This document shows, in pieces, positions 40,295 to 60,975 of a stretch of DNA of 64,000 nucleotides. Numbering within the stretch: the stretch's first letter is position 1; each line of letters starts with the position of its first letter. The translations under genes were made by a program, and so were the position numbers. This DNA is from Bacillus andreraoultii (GTDB taxonomy: Bacteria; Bacillota; Bacilli; Bacillales; Caldibacillaceae). The notes below the pieces were generated by a model that made no database searches, was not told the origin of the DNA, and was given only the letters and a program-made list of their open reading frames with translations. The stretch lies in assembly GCF_001244735.1 (NCBI RefSeq), contig NZ_LN868937.1, positions 1,022,402-1,086,401 on the forward strand, given 5' to 3'.

Positions 40295-40340
40295 AATTAA
40301 TAAGTGAACAATTTCACAAATGCTAGGAATATTGTTACAA

Positions 40341-51616: not shown

Positions 51617-51832
51617 ATGAAACTTATACTTGATCGATTTGAAGGAAGTTTAGCGGTCTGTGAAACAGAATCAGGTGAAATGATTGATATTGAAAAGGGA
51701 TATCTTCCGAAAAATGTAAAAGTCGGTGATGTGATTATCTTTGAAAATAACACCTATACAATCGATCAGAGTGAAACAGAGAAACGTCGGAAGGAAATTG
51801 AAGACTTAATGGCGGAGCTTTGGGAAGACTAA
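51617..51832 (+). CDS. DUF3006 family protein
   Basis: A 71-residue protein starting MKLILDRFEGSLAVCETESG with YLPKNVKVGDVI in the middle, the full DUF3006 pattern. This family is commonly encoded next to ComEC-like metallo-hydrolases, as here, but its function is unknown. AGCAGGTG sets ATG 51617; the frame is open further upstream without conserved content. The gap to the hydrolase is 236 bp, so cotranscription is uncertain. Confidence 0.82.
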   Translation: MKLILDRFEGSLAVCETESGEMIDIEKGYLPKNVKVGDVIIFENNTYTIDQSETEKRRKEIEDLMAELWED

Positions 51833-51900
51833 GAATTTTTATAAAATCGACTTCTTTAAAAAGAATAGTGAAGCAGGGACAAAAGTATTCCAGCTATAGG

Positions 51901-51962
51901 AAAACCCGAACTTTTCATGCGAATGATCATTTGGAGTTTCGCAATTGCTCGGGTTTTTTATA
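51901..51962 (+). terminator. Nested terminator after the DUF3006 gene
   Basis: AAAACCCGA (51901-51909) pairs with TCGGGTTTT (51949-51957), with an inner stem TGCGAA/TTTCGCA, followed by a T-run. Confidence 0.8.
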
Positions 51963-52087
51963 TGTATTGTTATTTTAAAGGGAATTTATTTGCCGCTTCC
52001 AAAGGGCAATCCGACTCATTTTATCCAATTCTTGTCATAATAACTTTGTCTAATTTTTAACAGATAAATAAAACCGCCTGAAGTGTT

Positions 52088-52182
52088 TTGTAAACATGTT
52101 ACGATAGTAATGTAATGATAGTTTACTATTTTAAAAGGATGAAATGGATATGATGATATTCTTTATGCTTGGAGGTATTTAA
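52088..52182 (+). promoter_or_regulatory. Promoter and short leader frame of the ArcR-like gene
   Basis: TTGTAA (52088-52093), a 17-nt spacer and TGTAAT (52111-52116) form a promoter; TAGTAA/TTACTA (52105 and 52123) flank it as a possible operator. AAAAGGA at 52133-52139 precedes a mini-frame (ATG at 52144, 52150 or 52153) ending GGI-TAA exactly at the regulator ATG, so it spans the regulator's own GGAGGT. Confidence 0.4.
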
Positions 52183-52872
52183 ATGAGGGTAAAGAACACA
52201 GTGGACGATTTAACTAAATTCACAATTTTGTCACACTTAACAGATGAAGGATTGGAAAGGGTTAAAAAGCAATTATTCCAACGTACGTATAAAAAAAATC
52301 AATTATTATTTACTGTTGGTGACCCCCGAGAACGAATCTACCTTTTAAGTAAAGGTTATGTCAAGTTAGAAAAGACGAATGCTGATGCCACTATGCTCTA
52401 TTTAGATTATGTAAAGCCCCATGACTTATTCCCCTATGGCGGTATGTTTAAAGATACTTACTATCATTACGCTGCATATGCATTAACAGATATTATGGTT
52501 TATTATATACCTACTACTATATTTGAAGAGCTCGTACAGACAAATAAAGAGCAGTTACTTTACATTGTAAACCGCTTATCAAGGATTTTAGAACAGCATG
52601 AAAGAAGATTGCAAACAGTTACAACATCGAACGTAAAAGACAAAGTAGAACAATCTATCACCTATTTATTAGAAGGATTTGGCATTCCAAAAGAAAATGA
52701 TGTTGTCATTGATGTGCCGATGACAATCACTGAAATCGCAAAAATATCTGGTACATCAAGAGAAACGGTGTCCCATGTGTTTAAAGACTTACGCTGCGAT
52801 GGATTGCTGACAATGGAAGGACGTCAAATAATCATTCATGATGTGAATTATTTTAAAGATAAAGTGCAGTGA
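52183..52872 (+). CDS. arcR: Crp/Fnr-family regulator, ArcR-like
   Basis: A 229-residue regulator with a cyclic-nucleotide-binding-like beta-roll (~20-130), a dimer helix (~130-155) and a winged helix-turn-helix MTITEIAKISGTSRETVSHV (~179-198). The SRETVSHVFKDL recognition helix predicts TGTGA-type half-sites. There is only one cysteine (DLRCDG), so there is no Fnr-type iron-sulfur cluster. Position before arcA and similarity to ArcR of bacilli suggest activation of the arginine deiminase genes under oxygen limitation. TTGGAGG precedes the ATG. Confidence 0.82.
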   Translation: MRVKNTVDDLTKFTILSHLTDEGLERVKKQLFQRTYKKNQLLFTVGDPRERIYLLSKGYVKLEKTNADATMLYLDYVKPHDLFPYGGMFKDTYYHYAAYALTDIMVYYIPTTIFEELVQTNKEQLLYIVNRLSRILEQHERRLQTVTTSNVKDKVEQSITYLLEGFGIPKENDVVIDVPMTITEIAKISGTSRETVSHVFKDLRCDGLLTMEGRQIIIHDVNYFKDKVQ

Positions 52873-52971
52873 GTTTTATAATTTGTTATCTTAAATGTTT
52901 ATTTATATGTATATTCATGTGCTTACGTGAATCGACTTAAAAACTCGAAATCATGTAGGCGCTTTCTATTT

Positions 52972-53109
52972 TGTGAAATATACCACGGAAACGGTGTGAA
53001 TCTATCCACAGTAATGATGTGATGGTAGCGCACCTCATTATGTAACCGCCACCATAATGGAGGCAAGAGAAATTTCATATTTAACTTGTTAGCGCCTTCA
53101 CAACAACAA
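52972..53109 (+). promoter_or_regulatory. 23-bp phased array of Crp/Fnr-type boxes before arcA
   Basis: 16-bp boxes begin exactly every 23 bp: TGTGAAATATACCACG (52972), TGTGAATCTATCCACA (52995), TGTGATGGTAGCGCAC (53018), TGTAACCGCCACCATA (53041), a degenerate CAAGAGAAATTTCATA (53064) and TGTTAGCGCCTTCACA (53087). The box pattern is TGTGA-N6-TCACA. A -10-like GATAAT lies at 53127-53132, placing the last box near -44. Confidence 0.8.
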
Positions 53110-53174
53110 AACTTCAATTCTATTAAGATAATAACTGTAAGAAGCATTTCATAATTTTTAAGGAGGGTATTCAA

Positions 53175-54407
53175 TTGAAACATCCACTTCATATTACTTC
53201 TGAAATTGGTGAATTAAAAACAGTTTTGCTACATCGTCCAGGTGAAGAAGTTGAAAATCTTACCCCAGAATATTTACACAGATTATTATTTGATGATATC
53301 CCATACTTACCGATTATTCAAAAAGAGCATGATTACTTTGCTTCTACCTTAAAAAATCGAGGAATTGAAGTGCTCTATTTAACAACATTATTAACGGAGG
53401 CACTTTACACCGATGACATTAAAAAACAATTTGTTACTGATCTATTGACTGAATCACGTGTTAGTGTAAATGGTTCTTTTACTAATTTATATGAATACTT
53501 ATTCTCGTATGACACTGAAGAAATGATTAAAAAAATTATGGCTGGTGTTCGTAAGTCGGAAATTGAGACAAAAAAGAAAACACATCTATATGAAATGTTA
53601 GAAGACCATTATCCATTTTATCTAGATCCGATGCCAAATTTATATTTCACAAGGGACCCAGCTGCTACTATTGGGAATGGATTAACAATTAATCGAATGA
53701 GGGAACCAGCTAGACGACGTGAATCATTATTTATGAAATATATAATAAAATATCATCCACGTTTTGCTAGTCATGATATTCCTATATGGTTTAACCGAGA
53801 TTTTGATTATCCGATGGAAGGAGGAGACGAACTCGTATTATCTAAAGATACAATTGCCATTGGTATCAGTGCAAGAACAGCGGCGAAAGCAATTGAACGT
53901 TTTGCACTAAATGTGTTTAATCGTGAAAGTGATATTAAACGAGTTGTAGCTGTAGAGATTCCAAAATCAAGAGCGTTTATGCACTTAGATACTGTGTTTA
54001 CAATGGTTGACTATGATAAATTTACCATTCACCCTGCAATTCAAGGACCAGAAGGAAACATGAATATATATATTCTTGAAAAAGGTCCGAATGAAGAAAC
54101 GGTTAAAATTACACATAAAACAAACTTAATGGAAACATTGGCAGAAGTATTAGGGCTAAAAGAAGTTGCACTAATTCCTTGTGGTGGTGGTGATGTGATT
54201 GCTGCTCCGAGAGAACAATGGAATGATGGATCAAATACATTAGCCATTGCTCCAGGTGTAGTTGTAACTTACGATCGGAACTATGTATCGAATAGGCTAC
54301 TAAGAGAACATGGTATTGAAGTTATCGAAGTTCTAAGCTCGGAATTATCAAGAGGACGTGGGGGCCCTCGTTGTATGAGTATGCCCCTTGTTCGTAACGA
54401 CATCTAA
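53175..54407 (+). CDS. arcA: Arginine deiminase
   Basis: A 410-residue enzyme converting arginine to citrulline and ammonia, the first step of the energy-yielding deiminase pathway. The nucleophilic Cys is in [12 protein letters not shown] (~400); the Asp/Glu/His set is in [13 protein letters not shown] and MEGGDELVL and [10 protein letters not shown]. The start is TTG 53175 behind AAGGAGG with 8-nt spacing. It is the first gene after the phased regulator-site array. Confidence 0.97.
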
Positions 54408-54425
54408 AAGAAAGACAAGTTTAAC

Positions 54426-54465
54426 AATGCTGATAAATAGGTACATGTTGCTATTTATCAGCATT
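54426..54465 (+). other. Strong hairpin between arcA and arcB
   Basis: AATGCTGATAAATAG (54426-54440) pairs perfectly with CTATTTATCAGCATT (54451-54465), with a 10-nt loop. There is no immediate T-run (ATAAAAATTTTT follows), so it could terminate partially or protect arcA mRNA. Confidence 0.7.
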
Positions 54466-54497
54466 ATAAAAATTTTTGCCAAATTAGGAGGATTACT

Positions 54498-55508
54498 ATG
54501 TCTGCCACCGAAACGAGTCCATTAGCAGGAAAAAGCTTCTTAAAATTAAAAGATTTCACAGGAGAAGAAATCAATTATTTAATAGATTTAGCTGCTGATT
54601 TAAAGGAGAAAAAGAAAGTCGGTATCCCTCATCGTTATATGGAAGGACAGAATGTTGCATTACTTTTTGAAAAACCATCAACAAGAACTCGTTGTGCATT
54701 TACTGTTGCATGTGTTGATTTAGGGGCACATCCTGAATATTTAGGGAAAAATGATATACAATTTGGCAAGAAAGAATCGATTCGTGATACAGCAATTGTA
54801 CTAGGTCGGATGTTTGATGGAATTGAATTTAGAGGATTTGATCAATCAACGGTAGAGGCTTTATCAGAATATTCCGGTGTGCCCGTTTGGAATGGACTAA
54901 CTAATGAATTCCATCCGACACAAATTTTAGCTGACTTTTTAACAATTAAAGAAAATATTGGCCACCTAAAAGGTGTAACACTTGTTTATGTTGGTGATGG
55001 CCGAAATAATATGGGAAATAGTTTATTAATTGGTGGAGCAAAAGTAGGAATGGATATACGGATTTGCTCTCCAGAACAATTATTACCAAGTGATGAAATC
55101 GTTAATTATGCTAAAAAGATTGCGAAAGAAACAGATGCTAAAGTTATGGTTACATCAAATATTGATCAAGCTGTTTCCGGTGCTGACGTCCTTTACACAG
55201 ACGTTTGGGTATCTATGGGAGAAGAAGATAAATTCAAAGAAAGAATTGAATTATTACTTCCATATCAAGTAAATCGTGAAATGCTAAACAAAACAGGTAA
55301 TGAAAATGTTATGTTCTTACACTGCTTACCAAGCTTCCATGATTTAGAAACACAAGTAGGCCGAGAAGTTTATGAAAAATTTGGTTTAACCGAAATGGAA
55401 GTAACGGATGAAGTATTTCAAAGTGAAAATTCATTTGTTTTTGATGAAGCTGAAAATAGATTACACACAATTAAAGCCGTGATGGCAGCAACAAATGGAA
55501 AGTTTTAA
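54498..55508 (+). CDS. arcB: Catabolic ornithine carbamoyltransferase
   Basis: A 336-residue transcarbamylase converting citrulline and phosphate to ornithine and carbamoyl phosphate. The carbamoyl-phosphate loop [12 protein letters not shown] is at 58-69; HPTQILADF and the ornithine loop [10 protein letters not shown] are present. Its place between arcA and arcD/arcC marks it as the catabolic enzyme. AGGAGG precedes the ATG. Confidence 0.96.
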
Positions 55509-55548: not shown

Positions 55549-55800
55549 ATGAATGAGTAAAATTGTTAGTGGAGGTTCAACCCAAACGGAAATAAGAGGA
55601 AAAAGAGATTTAAAGCCCCATAAAAGTATAGTTTTACGAAGTGACAAACATCGCGTCGGCTTATAGTCTCTGCCAGGTTGTCGTGATCTATTGGAGAGGA
55701 TGCCCATCTACAAGCTCGAAAACTATGAGGTCCAAATTCTTGTAGCATTTGATTAACAAGGAGAACATATTCTCCTCAAACTAAAGAGAAGGTGAGTCAA
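55549..55800. other. Unexplained 250-bp arcB-arcD spacer
   Basis: This is longer and less AT-biased in its middle (55650-55730) than other spacers of the cluster. It has no gene I can support. AGGAGAACATATTCTCCT (55761-55778) is a small hairpin just before the arcD ribosome site. Minus-strand frames here are broken by stops. Confidence 0.3.
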
Positions 55801-57225
55801 ATGGGTGAAGATAAAAAGCTTGGATTAGTTGCATTAATTGCATTAGTAATCGGTTCGATGATTGGTGGGGGAGCGTTTAATCTTGCTGGAGATATCGCTC
55901 TTGGCGCGAATGCAGGTGCTGTCTTAATCGGTTGGGTTATAACGGGAATTGGTATTATTGCATTAGCCTTTGTCTTTCAAAATTTAGCAAGTAGAAAACC
56001 TGACCTTGATAGTGGTATTTACAGCTATGCAAAAGATGGATTTGGACCATTTCTAGGATTTAACAGTGCATGGGGCTATTGGTTATCCGCATGGCTAGGT
56101 AACGTAGCATATGCAACATTGTTATTCGCTTCGATTGGATATTTTTTTCCAACATTTGCTGGAGGCCAAAATGTAGCCTCAATTATTGGTGCATCTGTAG
56201 CTTTATGGTTTGTTCACTATCTTGTCTTACGCGGTATTCATTCTGCAGCATTTATTAATACAATTACAACGATTGCAAAAATAATCCCTATCTTCTTATT
56301 TATCATAATTGCAATTATTGCATTTAAATGGGATACTTTTACTTTTGACTTTTGGGGAGATGGTAGTTTCTCGTGGGGAGTTGTTGGTGAACAAGTTAAA
56401 AGTACAATGTTAGTAACATTATGGGTATTTATTGGTGTTGAAGGTGCCGTCATTATGTCAGGAAGGGCAAAAAGACGTTCTGACATCGGTAAAGCTACGG
56501 TGATCGGTTTAGTTAGTGTACTTCTTATATACATTCTTATTTCACTATTATCACTAGGAATTATGCCAAGGGAAGAACTTGCTGAATTACCTAATCCTGC
56601 AATGGCCTATATTTTGGAAGACGTTGTCGGTAAGTGGGGAGCAATTATTATTAATCTCGGTCTTATCATTTCTGTATTGGGCGCATGGCTTGGCTGGACA
56701 ATGTTTGCGGCTGAATTACCTTATGTGACTGCAAAAGATAAAATGTTTCCGAAATGGTTAGCGAAAGAAAATAAAAATAAAGCTCCTGTTAACGCATTAT
56801 GGTTAACAAACGGTTTAGTACAAATCTTCTTAATCACATTATTATTCTCTGATAAAGCATATAACTTTATGTTTTCACTCGCATCATCAGCGATTTTAAT
56901 TCCGTATATGTTATCAGCGTTCTACCAAGTAAAATTAACTTTTACTGGTGAAACGTATGAGGCAGATAGGAGTCGGAGGAAAGATAAAATAATCGGAATT
57001 ATTGCTAGTGTTTATGGGATTTGGCTCGTTTATGCAGCTGGTGTTGATTATTTATTATTAACGATGTTGTTATATGCACCAGGTATTATATTGTATAAAT
57101 GGACGATAAAGGAAAATCAAATACAAGTAAAAGAAACGAAATTAGATAAAGCCTTGATGTTCATTATTGCAATCCTTGGATTATGGGCTTTAATAGCGCT
57201 TCTTATGGGGAAAATTAGTATTTAA
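55801..57225 (+). CDS. arcD: Arginine:ornithine antiporter ArcD
   Basis: A 474-residue APC-superfamily exchanger with about 12-13 membrane helices, starting LVALIALVIGSMIGGGAFNL (the substrate-binding first helix) and YWLSAWLGNVAYATLLFASI. It swaps extracellular arginine for ornithine, driving the deiminase pathway without energy cost. AGAAGGTG sets ATG 55801; GTG 55792 is less likely. Its role is supported by flanking arcB and arcC. Confidence 0.94.
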   Translation: MGEDKKLGLVALIALVIGSMIGGGAFNLAGDIALGANAGAVLIGWVITGIGIIALAFVFQNLASRKPDLDSGIYSYAKDGFGPFLGFNSAWGYWLSAWLGNVAYATLLFASIGYFFPTFAGGQNVASIIGASVALWFVHYLVLRGIHSAAFINTITTIAKIIPIFLFIIIAIIAFKWDTFTFDFWGDGSFSWGVVGEQVKSTMLVTLWVFIGVEGAVIMSGRAKRRSDIGKATVIGLVSVLLIYILISLLSLGIMPREELAELPNPAMAYILEDVVGKWGAIIINLGLIISVLGAWLGWTMFAAELPYVTAKDKMFPKWLAKENKNKAPVNALWLTNGLVQIFLITLLFSDKAYNFMFSLASSAILIPYMLSAFYQVKLTFTGETYEADRSRRKDKIIGIIASVYGIWLVYAAGVDYLLLTMLLYAPGIILYKWTIKENQIQVKETKLDKALMFIIAILGLWALIALLMGKISI

Positions 57226-58360: not shown

Positions 58361-58394
58361 TCCCCATAAATTAATATTAAAGGATTTGAAGTCT

Positions 58395-59816
58395 ATGGAA
58401 ACAACATCAAAGAAAATCAGCTTATTTTCATTAACCGCACTTGTTATTAGTTCCTCCATAGGTGGTGGAGTTTTCGGAATTGCCTCCGATTTATCAAGTG
58501 GTTCTGCAGTAGGACCTAGTTTAATTGCATGGCTTATTGTAGGACTTGGTATACTTATGCTATCACTGAGTTTTAATAACTTAATAAGTAAACGCCCGGA
58601 TTTAGTAGGGATGTTTAGTTTTGCAGAAGCTGGGTTCGGTCCATTTTGGGGATTTATAAGCGGTTGGGGTTATTGGTTGTCTGCATGGCTTGGAAACGTC
58701 GCTTTTGCAACGATGATGATGAATGCATTTGCGTACTTCTTCCCAATATTTGATGATGGGCAAAATATTCCGTCAATCATTTTAGCCAGTCTATTTATGT
58801 GGTCACTAACTTTTATTGTTAATAAAGGGGTGGAGAGTGCCGCATTATTAAATACAGTTATTACGATATGTAAATTAACTCCATTATTTGTTTTTATTGT
58901 TTTCGGTATTTTCGCCTTTAAATTGGATATATTTACAGCAAATTTCTGGGGTACCGTTTCGCATAACTTTGAACTACATGCTGTAATGAGTCAAATTCGT
59001 AATTGTATGATGGTGATGATGTGGGTTTTTGTAGGGATTGAAGGTGCTTCAATACTATCTACAAGAGCTGAAAAAAAGAGTGATGCAGGTAAGGCAACTG
59101 TACTTGGGGTATTAAGTCTTTTAGCAATTTATGTAATGGCTTCAATCATCCCGTATGGAATTATGTCACAAGAGCAGTTGGCTGAAATGAAACAACCTTC
59201 GATGGCATATGTTTTTGAAAGTATTGTCGGTCCTTGGGGTGCAGCATTTATAAATATCGGCTTAATTATTTCACTACTAGGTTCATGGTTATCATGGACA
59301 ATGCTTCCAGGAGAAACAGCACTATTAATGTCACGTAAAGGGTTATTACCAAAAGCTTTTAAATATGTAAATAAGGCAGGAGCACCGACATTTGCGTTAA
59401 TCGTAACGGCAGGACTCGTCCAATTATTTGTTTTTACATTTTTATTTACTGATAAAGCTTATAACTTTGCCTATTCATTATGTACAGCTTCAATCTTAAT
59501 TTGTTATTTATTTGTTACGTTATATCAAATAAAAATTTCCTATCAAAATCGGCATATGAAAGGTGAAAAGCAACAGTTCGTAATTGGAATGATTGCGTTC
59601 GTTTTCCAAATTAGTGCGATTTTACTATCAGGACTTATCTATCTATTAATTTGTTTTATCGCCTATATTCCTGGTGTCTATTTTTATATAAAAGCTCGGA
59701 GGGAAGATGGTGAGGAAATTGTGTTATCTACCAATGAATGGATTGCAACAGCGCATATTGTTGTTGGTGCACTAATTGCAATTGGGTTAATCTATACGGG
59801 TTTTGTGCAAATATAA
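58395..59816 (+). CDS. Second ArcD-like amino acid antiporter
   Basis: A 473-residue APC exchanger clearly related to the ArcD at 55801: LTALVISSSIGGGVFGIASD first helix, GFISGWGYWLSAWLGNVAFA and matched downstream helices. Divergence is considerable, so the two are old paralogues. In other deiminase clusters a second exchanger handles arginine/alanine or citrulline/ornithine. Adjacency to an aminotransferase gene suggests an amino-acid partner other than ornithine. AAAGGA precedes ATG 58395. Confidence 0.88.
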   Translation: METTSKKISLFSLTALVISSSIGGGVFGIASDLSSGSAVGPSLIAWLIVGLGILMLSLSFNNLISKRPDLVGMFSFAEAGFGPFWGFISGWGYWLSAWLGNVAFATMMMNAFAYFFPIFDDGQNIPSIILASLFMWSLTFIVNKGVESAALLNTVITICKLTPLFVFIVFGIFAFKLDIFTANFWGTVSHNFELHAVMSQIRNCMMVMMWVFVGIEGASILSTRAEKKSDAGKATVLGVLSLLAIYVMASIIPYGIMSQEQLAEMKQPSMAYVFESIVGPWGAAFINIGLIISLLGSWLSWTMLPGETALLMSRKGLLPKAFKYVNKAGAPTFALIVTAGLVQLFVFTFLFTDKAYNFAYSLCTASILICYLFVTLYQIKISYQNRHMKGEKQQFVIGMIAFVFQISAILLSGLIYLLICFIAYIPGVYFYIKARREDGEEIVLSTNEWIATAHIVVGALIAIGLIYTGFVQI

Positions 59817-59856: not shown

Positions 59857-60975
59857 ATGAAAATACCAAGATTCGGTGTAGAAGAATGGTTAAATGTTTG
59901 GGAAAATGATGCACGCTATGATATAGCAGGAAGTTCGATTGCTTCTTTCACATTAGAGGAGATTATCGGAATTGATGGGACTTCTCCAAATGAATTTTAT
60001 GATAGAATAATAAAGAAAAAAATGGACTATGGTTGGATTGAAGGGTCACCACAGTTTAAACAAGAAGTAAGTAAATTATATAAACATATGCCTCCAGAAA
60101 ATATTCTTCAAACAAATGGAGCAACGGGTGCAAACTTACTTGCTTTTTATGCATTAATAGAACGAGGGGATCACGTTATTGCGATGCACCCGACGTATCA
60201 GCAATTATATGATATACCACGTTCAATGGGGGCTGAAGTCACCTTCTGGGAAATCGATGAGGAACACGAGTGGATTCCTAATATTGAAGAATTAAAAAGG
60301 CTCATTCGACCGGATACAAAAATGATCTGTTTAAATAATGCGAATAACCCTACTGGAACAGTTCTCGATGAAGAAATGTTAATGCAAATTGTCGAAATCG
60401 CTGCTAGTGTCGGTGCATATGTGCTCGTTGATGAAGTATATAAACCACTCGATCCGAATGTTCATATCCCTTCTATTGTTGATTTATATGATAAAGGGAT
60501 TGCGACGAATAGTTTGTCAAAGACATATTCCGTACCAGGTGTTCGTGTTGGTTGGACGGCTAGTAATCGTGAAATCGCAAATGTTTTTAGAAAATATCGT
60601 GATTATACAATGATTTGTGCGGGGGTCTTTGATGATTATTTAGCCGTGCATACGTTAAAAAATAAAGAAGCGATCTTAAGAAGAAATCAAGATATTGTTT
60701 ATACAAACTTAGCACTCTTGAAAGAATGGGTGAACAATGAAACGCGGGTTTCGTTAGTTTTTCCAAAAGCCGTTTCAACTTCTTTTATCAAATTAAATAT
60801 TCCAGTTGATGTAGAAGAGTTTTGTATAGATTTATTAAAAACAAAAGGGGTATTACTAGTTCCAGGTAATCGTTTTGATGTACCAGGTCATGCCCGCCTC
60901 GGCTACTGCACCCATACACACATTTTAGAAAAAGGTTTAGCTGAACTGTCTTCCTATTTAAAGCAGTATCATTAG
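59857..60975 (+). CDS. PLP-dependent class I/II aminotransferase
   Basis: A 372-residue fold-type I aminotransferase: NGATGANLLAFYALIERGDH (~85-105), NNANNPTGTVL with the cofactor Asn (~165-175), DEVYKPL (~193-199) and the Schiff-base Lys in NSLSKTYSVPGVRVGW (~218-233). It is the last gene of the arginine cluster, 40 bp after the second antiporter. Substrate is unknown; ornithine, alanine or arginine are plausible given context. Similar aminotransferases occur in other arginine deiminase loci. Confidence 0.85.
   Translation: MKIPRFGVEEWLNVWENDARYDIAGSSIASFTLEEIIGIDGTSPNEFYDRIIKKKMDYGWIEGSPQFKQEVSKLYKHMPPENILQTNGATGANLLAFYALIERGDHVIAMHPTYQQLYDIPRSMGAEVTFWEIDEEHEWIPNIEELKRLIRPDTKMICLNNANNPTGTVLDEEMLMQIVEIAASVGAYVLVDEVYKPLDPNVHIPSIVDLYDKGIATNSLSKTYSVPGVRVGWTASNREIANVFRKYRDYTMICAGVFDDYLAVHTLKNKEAILRRNQDIVYTNLALLKEWVNNETRVSLVFPKAVSTSFIKLNIPVDVEEFCIDLLKTKGVLLVPGNRFDVPGHARLGYCTHTHILEKGLAELSSYLKQYH

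Follow-up and report, generated by a model that had tools for sequence, protein, structure and literature searches.

The 64,000-nucleotide stretch of the Bacillus andreraoultii genome analyzed here (the window) carries an arc operon, a gene for an ArcR-like regulator upstream of it and, between the two, a comb of Crp/Fnr-type boxes repeated every 23 bp (Table 1). The genes arcA, arcB, arcD, and arcC lie directly downstream of the array (NCBIfam), and the regulator gene encodes a protein with the Crp recognition-helix motif SRETVSHVF. Crp/Fnr-type boxes upstream of an arc operon and after a Crp/Fnr regulator gene were what the original prediction had described, and both the regulator domains and the arc genes were identified. 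Two arginine-ornithine antiporter genes (arcD), at 55792-57225 and 58386-59816, flank arcC, and an aminotransferase gene (PRK07324 family) follows at 59857. Rfam detected no RNA elements in 51800-54600.

Table 1. Features of the arcR-arcA region by position in the window. Fractions are half-site matches to TGTGA-N6-TCACA, P values are window-wide values for the box matrix, and centers are relative to the predicted start.
Feature	Position	Strand	Basis and remarks
arcR-like Crp/Fnr-family regulator gene, 229 aa	52183..52872	+	Pfam cNMP_binding and HTH_Crp_2
Doubtful seventh box, CGTGAATCGACTTAAA	52926..52941	+	in phase, weak: 7/10; P = 0.024
Slot 1, strong box, TGTGAAATATACCACG	52972..52987	+	center -156.5; 8/10; P = 3e-5
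Slot 2, strong box, TGTGAATCTATCCACA	52995..53010	+	center -133.5; 9/10; P = 1.4e-4; strong box at the equivalent place in L084
Slot 3, exact left TGTGA, poor right half, TGTGATGGTAGCGCAC	53018..53033	+	center -110.5; 5/10
Slot 4, weak box, partly cre-like, TGTAACCGCCACCATA	53041..53056	+	center -87.5; 7/10; P = 0.12
Slot 5, moderate box, CAAGAGAAATTTCATA	53064..53079	+	conserved distal position, -64.5; 6/10; P = 7e-4
Slot 6, cre-like (9/10), TGTTAGCGCCTTCACA	53087..53102	+	conserved proximal position, -41.5; 9/10; P = 1.3e-3
Predicted -10 hexamer, TAAGAT	53124..53129	+	21 bp past the proximal box, as in most layout-fitting relatives
Ribosome binding site, AAGGAGG	53160..53166	+	sequence
arcA, arginine deiminase, TTG start, first arc operon gene	53175..54407	+	TIGR01078, 558 bits

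The six slots start at 52972, 52995, 53018, 53041, 53064, and 53087, an exact 23-bp step spanning 52972-53102, and every coordinate originally proposed for them proved exact. The six-slot comb totals 44 of 60 possible half-site matches at period 23, with all other periods from 16 to 39 giving at most 30; in 2,000 dinucleotide shuffles of the intergenic sequence, no period in that range ever gave 44 (the 99.9th percentile of the shuffles was 34). Taking the phase from the last box gives the four distal slots a total of 29, a value that none of 20,000 shuffles equaled (best shuffle, 22), and the in-phase left halves of the two middle slots (3 and 4) alone have a P of 1e-4. The phased comb is a genuine and statistically secure feature of this region. 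The evidence for it rests on phase and not on individual boxes, since single boxes with at most two mismatches occur across the whole window at chance frequency (34, vs. 34.3 expected). Neither Tandem Repeats Finder nor the repeat finder detected the array, because the half-sites alone recur: outside them, identity between units is 0.23, vs. 0.28 expected, in agreement with the earlier description of the spacers as unrelated. As that identity is no better than chance, a recent tandem duplication is not the origin of the array. A pattern search extended the comparison to other loci of the genome, and the best match to the two-box pattern genome-wide was the arcA locus itself, with 0 mismatches.

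The slots differ considerably in quality. For a symmetric box matrix, 22 distal boxes from relatives were used (selection of the anchored matrix profile had drawn in part on the distal box, and that profile was excluded as evidence for spacing). Slots 1, 2, 5, and 6 score well by this matrix; slots 3 and 4, mainly in-phase left half-sites, score poorly as complete sites. Read in this way, slots 1-2 form one predicted pair and slots 5-6 another, offset from it by exactly four periods, and half-sites occupy slots 3 and 4. The box at 53064 had been called degenerate, but by this matrix it is the third best of the array, and the weak ones are those at 53018 and 53041. A seventh box had also been suggested at 52926; it does fall in phase, but was rejected as a box, being a weak match with the intervening slot at 52949 empty.

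The promoter layout was read from the arcA upstream regions of relatives: distal box, 7 bp, proximal box, 21 bp, TAnnnT. A scripted search that permitted gaps of 20-22 bp (and gave a one-point bonus to 21) recovered this layout in 34 of 110 upstream regions, the window included, most of them with a gap of exactly 21. The window conforms to it, with a proximal box of 9/10 at 53087-53102, a distal box of 6/10, a gap of 21 and TAAGAT. The center of the proximal box is at 53094.5 and the predicted start at ~53136, which gives -41.5 for the proximal box and -64.5 for the distal one; the upstream extension adds four further centers, from -87.5 to -156.5 (Table 1). No -35 element is recognizable: 53101-53106 reads CAACAA, and a promoter scan returned no match for an arcA promoter. 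A proximal box centered 41.5 bp before the predicted start, together with the lack of a recognizable -35, is the geometry of a class II activator, as in CRP. The original prediction had put the last box near -44 and judged it suited to activating RNA polymerase; the position shifts to -41.5 by the predicted start, and the judgment stands.

The 23-bp spacing recurs in other genomes. Our sample of arcA upstream regions came from eighty arcA loci, plus some thirty taken from whole genomes; when the window is excluded, their autocorrelation is led by lag 23 (105; mean 24, sd 12), which is the peak that had been anticipated. Among 92 non-redundant upstream regions of arcA in other genomes, neighboring boxes were spaced 23 bp apart 17 times, vs. 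4 times for the next most frequent spacing and at most 3 in shuffles. Within the Bacillales loci with full flanks, the 23-bp pair was present in 11 of the 12 with a linked ArcR gene vs. 1 of the 19 without (Fisher p = 1.6e-6, an optimistic figure as the loci share descent, which does not affect the contrast between spacings); spacings of 20-22 and 24-26 bp gave nothing significant against linked ArcR in the same loci. When ArcR homologues were searched across the class, most had a single strong box beside the regulator without the 23-bp pair, so the pair is a trait of Bacillales arc promoters and not of every ArcR-like gene. This conserved two-box rule, drawn from sequence comparison, is our firmest result.

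The long comb is shared much less widely. Relatives usually have the two boxes nearest the promoter, and three in phase are rare: O. halotolerans (L004; regulator 57% and arcA 80% identical) has three in-register boxes, equivalent to slots 6, 5, and 3. The nearest arcA relative, from the same family (L084; arcA 84% identical), matches slots 6 and 2 with strong boxes, the distal one 91 bp from the proximal vs. 92 bp in the window, and its -64.5 slot is empty. In L154/L183 (arcA 80%, regulator 54%) the proximal box stands alone. Three consecutive 23-bp boxes (with at most three mismatches) were found only in the B. andreraoultii genome among 394 genomes of the order. Thus, as to the conservation of box phase in relatives, whose absence the original prediction would have taken as refuting it, the 23-bp pair is kept and the long array is not; the pair is widespread and the long comb, as far as sampled, special to the B. 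andreraoultii lineage.

The likely protein at the array is ArcR, the product of 52183-52872, because across Bacillales the 23-bp pair is associated with a linked ArcR gene. Homologues of this regulator are linked to arc genes in relatives, and S. aureus ArcR binds a promoter with TGTGA-N6-TCACA in gel shifts (PMC5452487).

We consider the best explanation, and a probable one, to be a lengthened ArcR class II promoter of the arc operon in which strong outer boxes would aid weak inner ones and CcpA may compete. The sequence itself shows the phase and that it exceeds chance, the conserved pair, the geometry of the promoter and the link to ArcR; ArcR as the bound protein, the cooperative filling of slots and the competition by CcpA are what we infer. 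The core is the layout that ArcR-linked arc promoters share, a tandem of ArcR boxes with a 23-bp step, in which the dimer at -41.5 could contact the sigma and alpha subunits of RNA polymerase (class II), and the comb is lengthened by four slots in the same register: a strong pair at -133.5/-156.5, separated from the core by two weak sites or half-sites. Crp-family dimers span about 22 bp (from CRP), so a 23-bp step would set neighbors nearly edge to edge, and adjacent ArcR dimers, almost touching, could assist one another. The outer strong boxes would then help to load both the weak inner slots and the proximal box, raising ArcR occupancy at the promoter, so that under anaerobiosis the arc genes would be expressed highly or induced sharply. 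Competition of CcpA with ArcR at the proximal box would bring about glucose repression.

Since the proximal box is cre-like both here and in several relatives, catabolite repression may be built into the ArcR site. CcpA repression of arc operons via cre has been reviewed (PMC4813224). Slot 6 matches 9 of 10 positions of the cre consensus TGWNANCGNTNWCA (one mismatch, at a chance level that is not negligible) and slot 4, counted by eye, 8 of 10; proximal boxes that are fully cre occur in L023 and L028 (TGTTATCGCTTTCACA), in L092 (TGTCAGCGCTTTCACA) and in L091 and L094 (TGTAAACGCTTTCACT), and L084 has a cre-like palindrome, TGTAAGGGATTACA, where slot 4 falls. A composite ArcR/CcpA proximal site is plausible on these matches. 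The same matches would fit two regulators sharing the register, ArcR at slots 1, 2, and 5 and CcpA at slots 4 and 6, with glucose repression and anaerobic activation competing for the same helix positions. We lean against this division of the comb, although it deserves a place among the possibilities: L013, L034, and L099 share the layout with proximal boxes that are not cre, cre-like 14-mers (at most one mismatch) are in only modest excess in the window (16 vs. 7.6 expected), and the central CG of relatives' boxes, in 5 proximal vs. 0 distal of 28, is borderline (p = 0.05). A reading of the whole comb as cre alone was rejected, slots 1-3 and 5 being without the central CG. The boxes might instead be filled by another protein of the same consensus, either Fnr or another Crp/Fnr paralogue or Rex (TTGTGAAW4TTCACAA). 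The B. andreraoultii genome does hold several other Crp/Fnr-type genes whose products could read the same box, and S. aureus Rex binds upstream of arcA at a box that overlaps the ArcR consensus (PMC2883068); but it is the linked ArcR gene that goes with the 23-bp pair across Bacillales, the right half of the Rex box, TTCACAA, is absent from every slot except slot 6, and both halves occur together in none of the six, which makes such a protein an unlikely occupant.

As to how many of the slots work, the proximal pair alone may act at the promoter, with slots 1-2 as a separate operator pair, so that two to four sites are functional and the intervening half-sites are relics or low-affinity positions without a role. 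This has a substantial chance of being correct, if one somewhat short of even. The matrix backs four slots only, relatives carry two boxes, and the strong boxes of the closest relative lie only at about -41.5 and about -132.5; against it, the left half-sites of the middle slots are in phase beyond chance, and the distal pair retains an exact 92-bp register with the proximal box. Chance or a decayed tandem duplication, to which the chance frequency of single boxes in the window might seem to point, is a very improbable source of the comb, since no shuffle in either set reached the phased scores, the units are alike in their half-sites alone and the 23-bp spacing is seen again in other genera. 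That six dimers load cooperatively or in a wrapped complex is, on the other hand, plausible. At 10.5 bp per turn, successive slots are rotated by 69 degrees, and slots 1 and 6 (115 bp or 10.95 turns apart) come to lie on the same face; CRP-like bends of 80 degrees at a 23-bp step would yield a right-handed coil of ~82 bp per turn, a figure that is a geometric estimate only. That six ArcR dimers form one cooperative nucleoprotein filament, bending and coiling ~140 bp of promoter DNA and giving a steep anaerobic switch, is the strongest version of this idea, and we think it improbable.

Compared with known systems, the array looks like a lengthened form of an ArcR promoter whose design is otherwise ordinary. 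The ArcR-regulated arcABDC promoter of Bacillus licheniformis and relatives was reportedly described by Maghnouj and colleagues in 1998 and 2000. This system is reported to resemble the window in having an arc operon, a Crp/Fnr-type ArcR and TGTGA-N6-TCACA boxes, but to differ in having two boxes instead of six slots, and in the position of arcR, downstream of the operon and not upstream of arcA. Two members of the licheniformis group, B. swezeyi (L023) and B. glycinifermentans (L028), have the same 23-bp pair as the window, and in B. swezeyi it is followed after 21 bp by a -10-like TAAGCT. The S. aureus ArcR and arc operon, native and ACME, are said to have been studied by Makhlin and colleagues in 2007. 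As in the window, one strong TGTGA-N6-TCACA box precedes arcA in S. aureus (PMC5452487), and in related staphylococci (L041, L044, and L049) the box likewise lies 21 bp before the -10; unlike the window, S. aureus has only one strong box, accompanied by no more than a weaker one 23 bp upstream, and the long comb is absent. Class II/III promoters of E. coli CRP also combine a dimer at -41.5 with further dimers upstream. As far as we know, documented CRP promoters have one to three sites, and we know of no six-slot 23-bp comb.

The 23-bp tandem with its fixed 21-bp gap to the -10 provides a simple, testable rule for ArcR-driven promoters across Bacillales, and with it a means of predicting arc operons under ArcR control. 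The extended comb could serve as a natural test case for the cooperative loading of Crp/Fnr activators in long arrays, and the composite proximal site as a concrete model of anaerobic activation and glucose repression meeting on one operator. If true, the six-dimer filament would be an instance of a bacterial activator acting as an oligomeric array.

Several side observations were made in the course of the analysis. Among the sampled loci, four titled Pseudomonas sp. ISL-84 or Candidatus Saccharibacteria (L027, L036, L043, and L059) have an arcA 60-67% identical to that of the window; the Pseudomonas sp. ISL-84 record is probably a misnamed Bacillus, and those of Saccharibacteria may reflect transfer or a binning error. 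Another locus (L181, 1319-1385) has an ArcR-like gene with tandem 23-bp boxes, a 21-bp gap and TATACT, as well as several extra boxes, some of them spaced 18 bp; arcA was not found in that locus. The top single match to the ArcR/Crp matrix in the window, AGTGAACAATTTCACA at 40303-40318, lies 3' of both adjacent reading frames (a small gene and an opposite-strand glutamate dehydrogenase-like gene) and is probably due to chance.

An ARG box was sought upstream of the ArcR boxes, where ArgR-activated arc promoters of the B. licheniformis type have one, and the best candidate, 8/10 at ~52904, was within the shuffle range. The ArgR/AhrC of the same genome (L151; G000:C14:1447220-1447840) is a single frame of 296 aa with two complete tandem ArgR domains, an arrangement seen in none of the 30 relatives searched (in one congener, a 154-aa frame holds just one ArgR copy); such a fusion is unusual for ArgR, normally a hexamer, and may be an assembly error. 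The same genome also carries a second 23-bp Crp-type tandem, TGTGATTATTATCAC..TGTGTTTTTTATCAT, with 2 mismatches, at G000:C14:2527937-2527974 and again at 2529261-2529298 (L133 and L134). These boxes are flanked by a small gene on one side and by a divergent Crp/Fnr-type gene on the other, and the whole locus is tandemly duplicated, the copies being 1324 bp apart.
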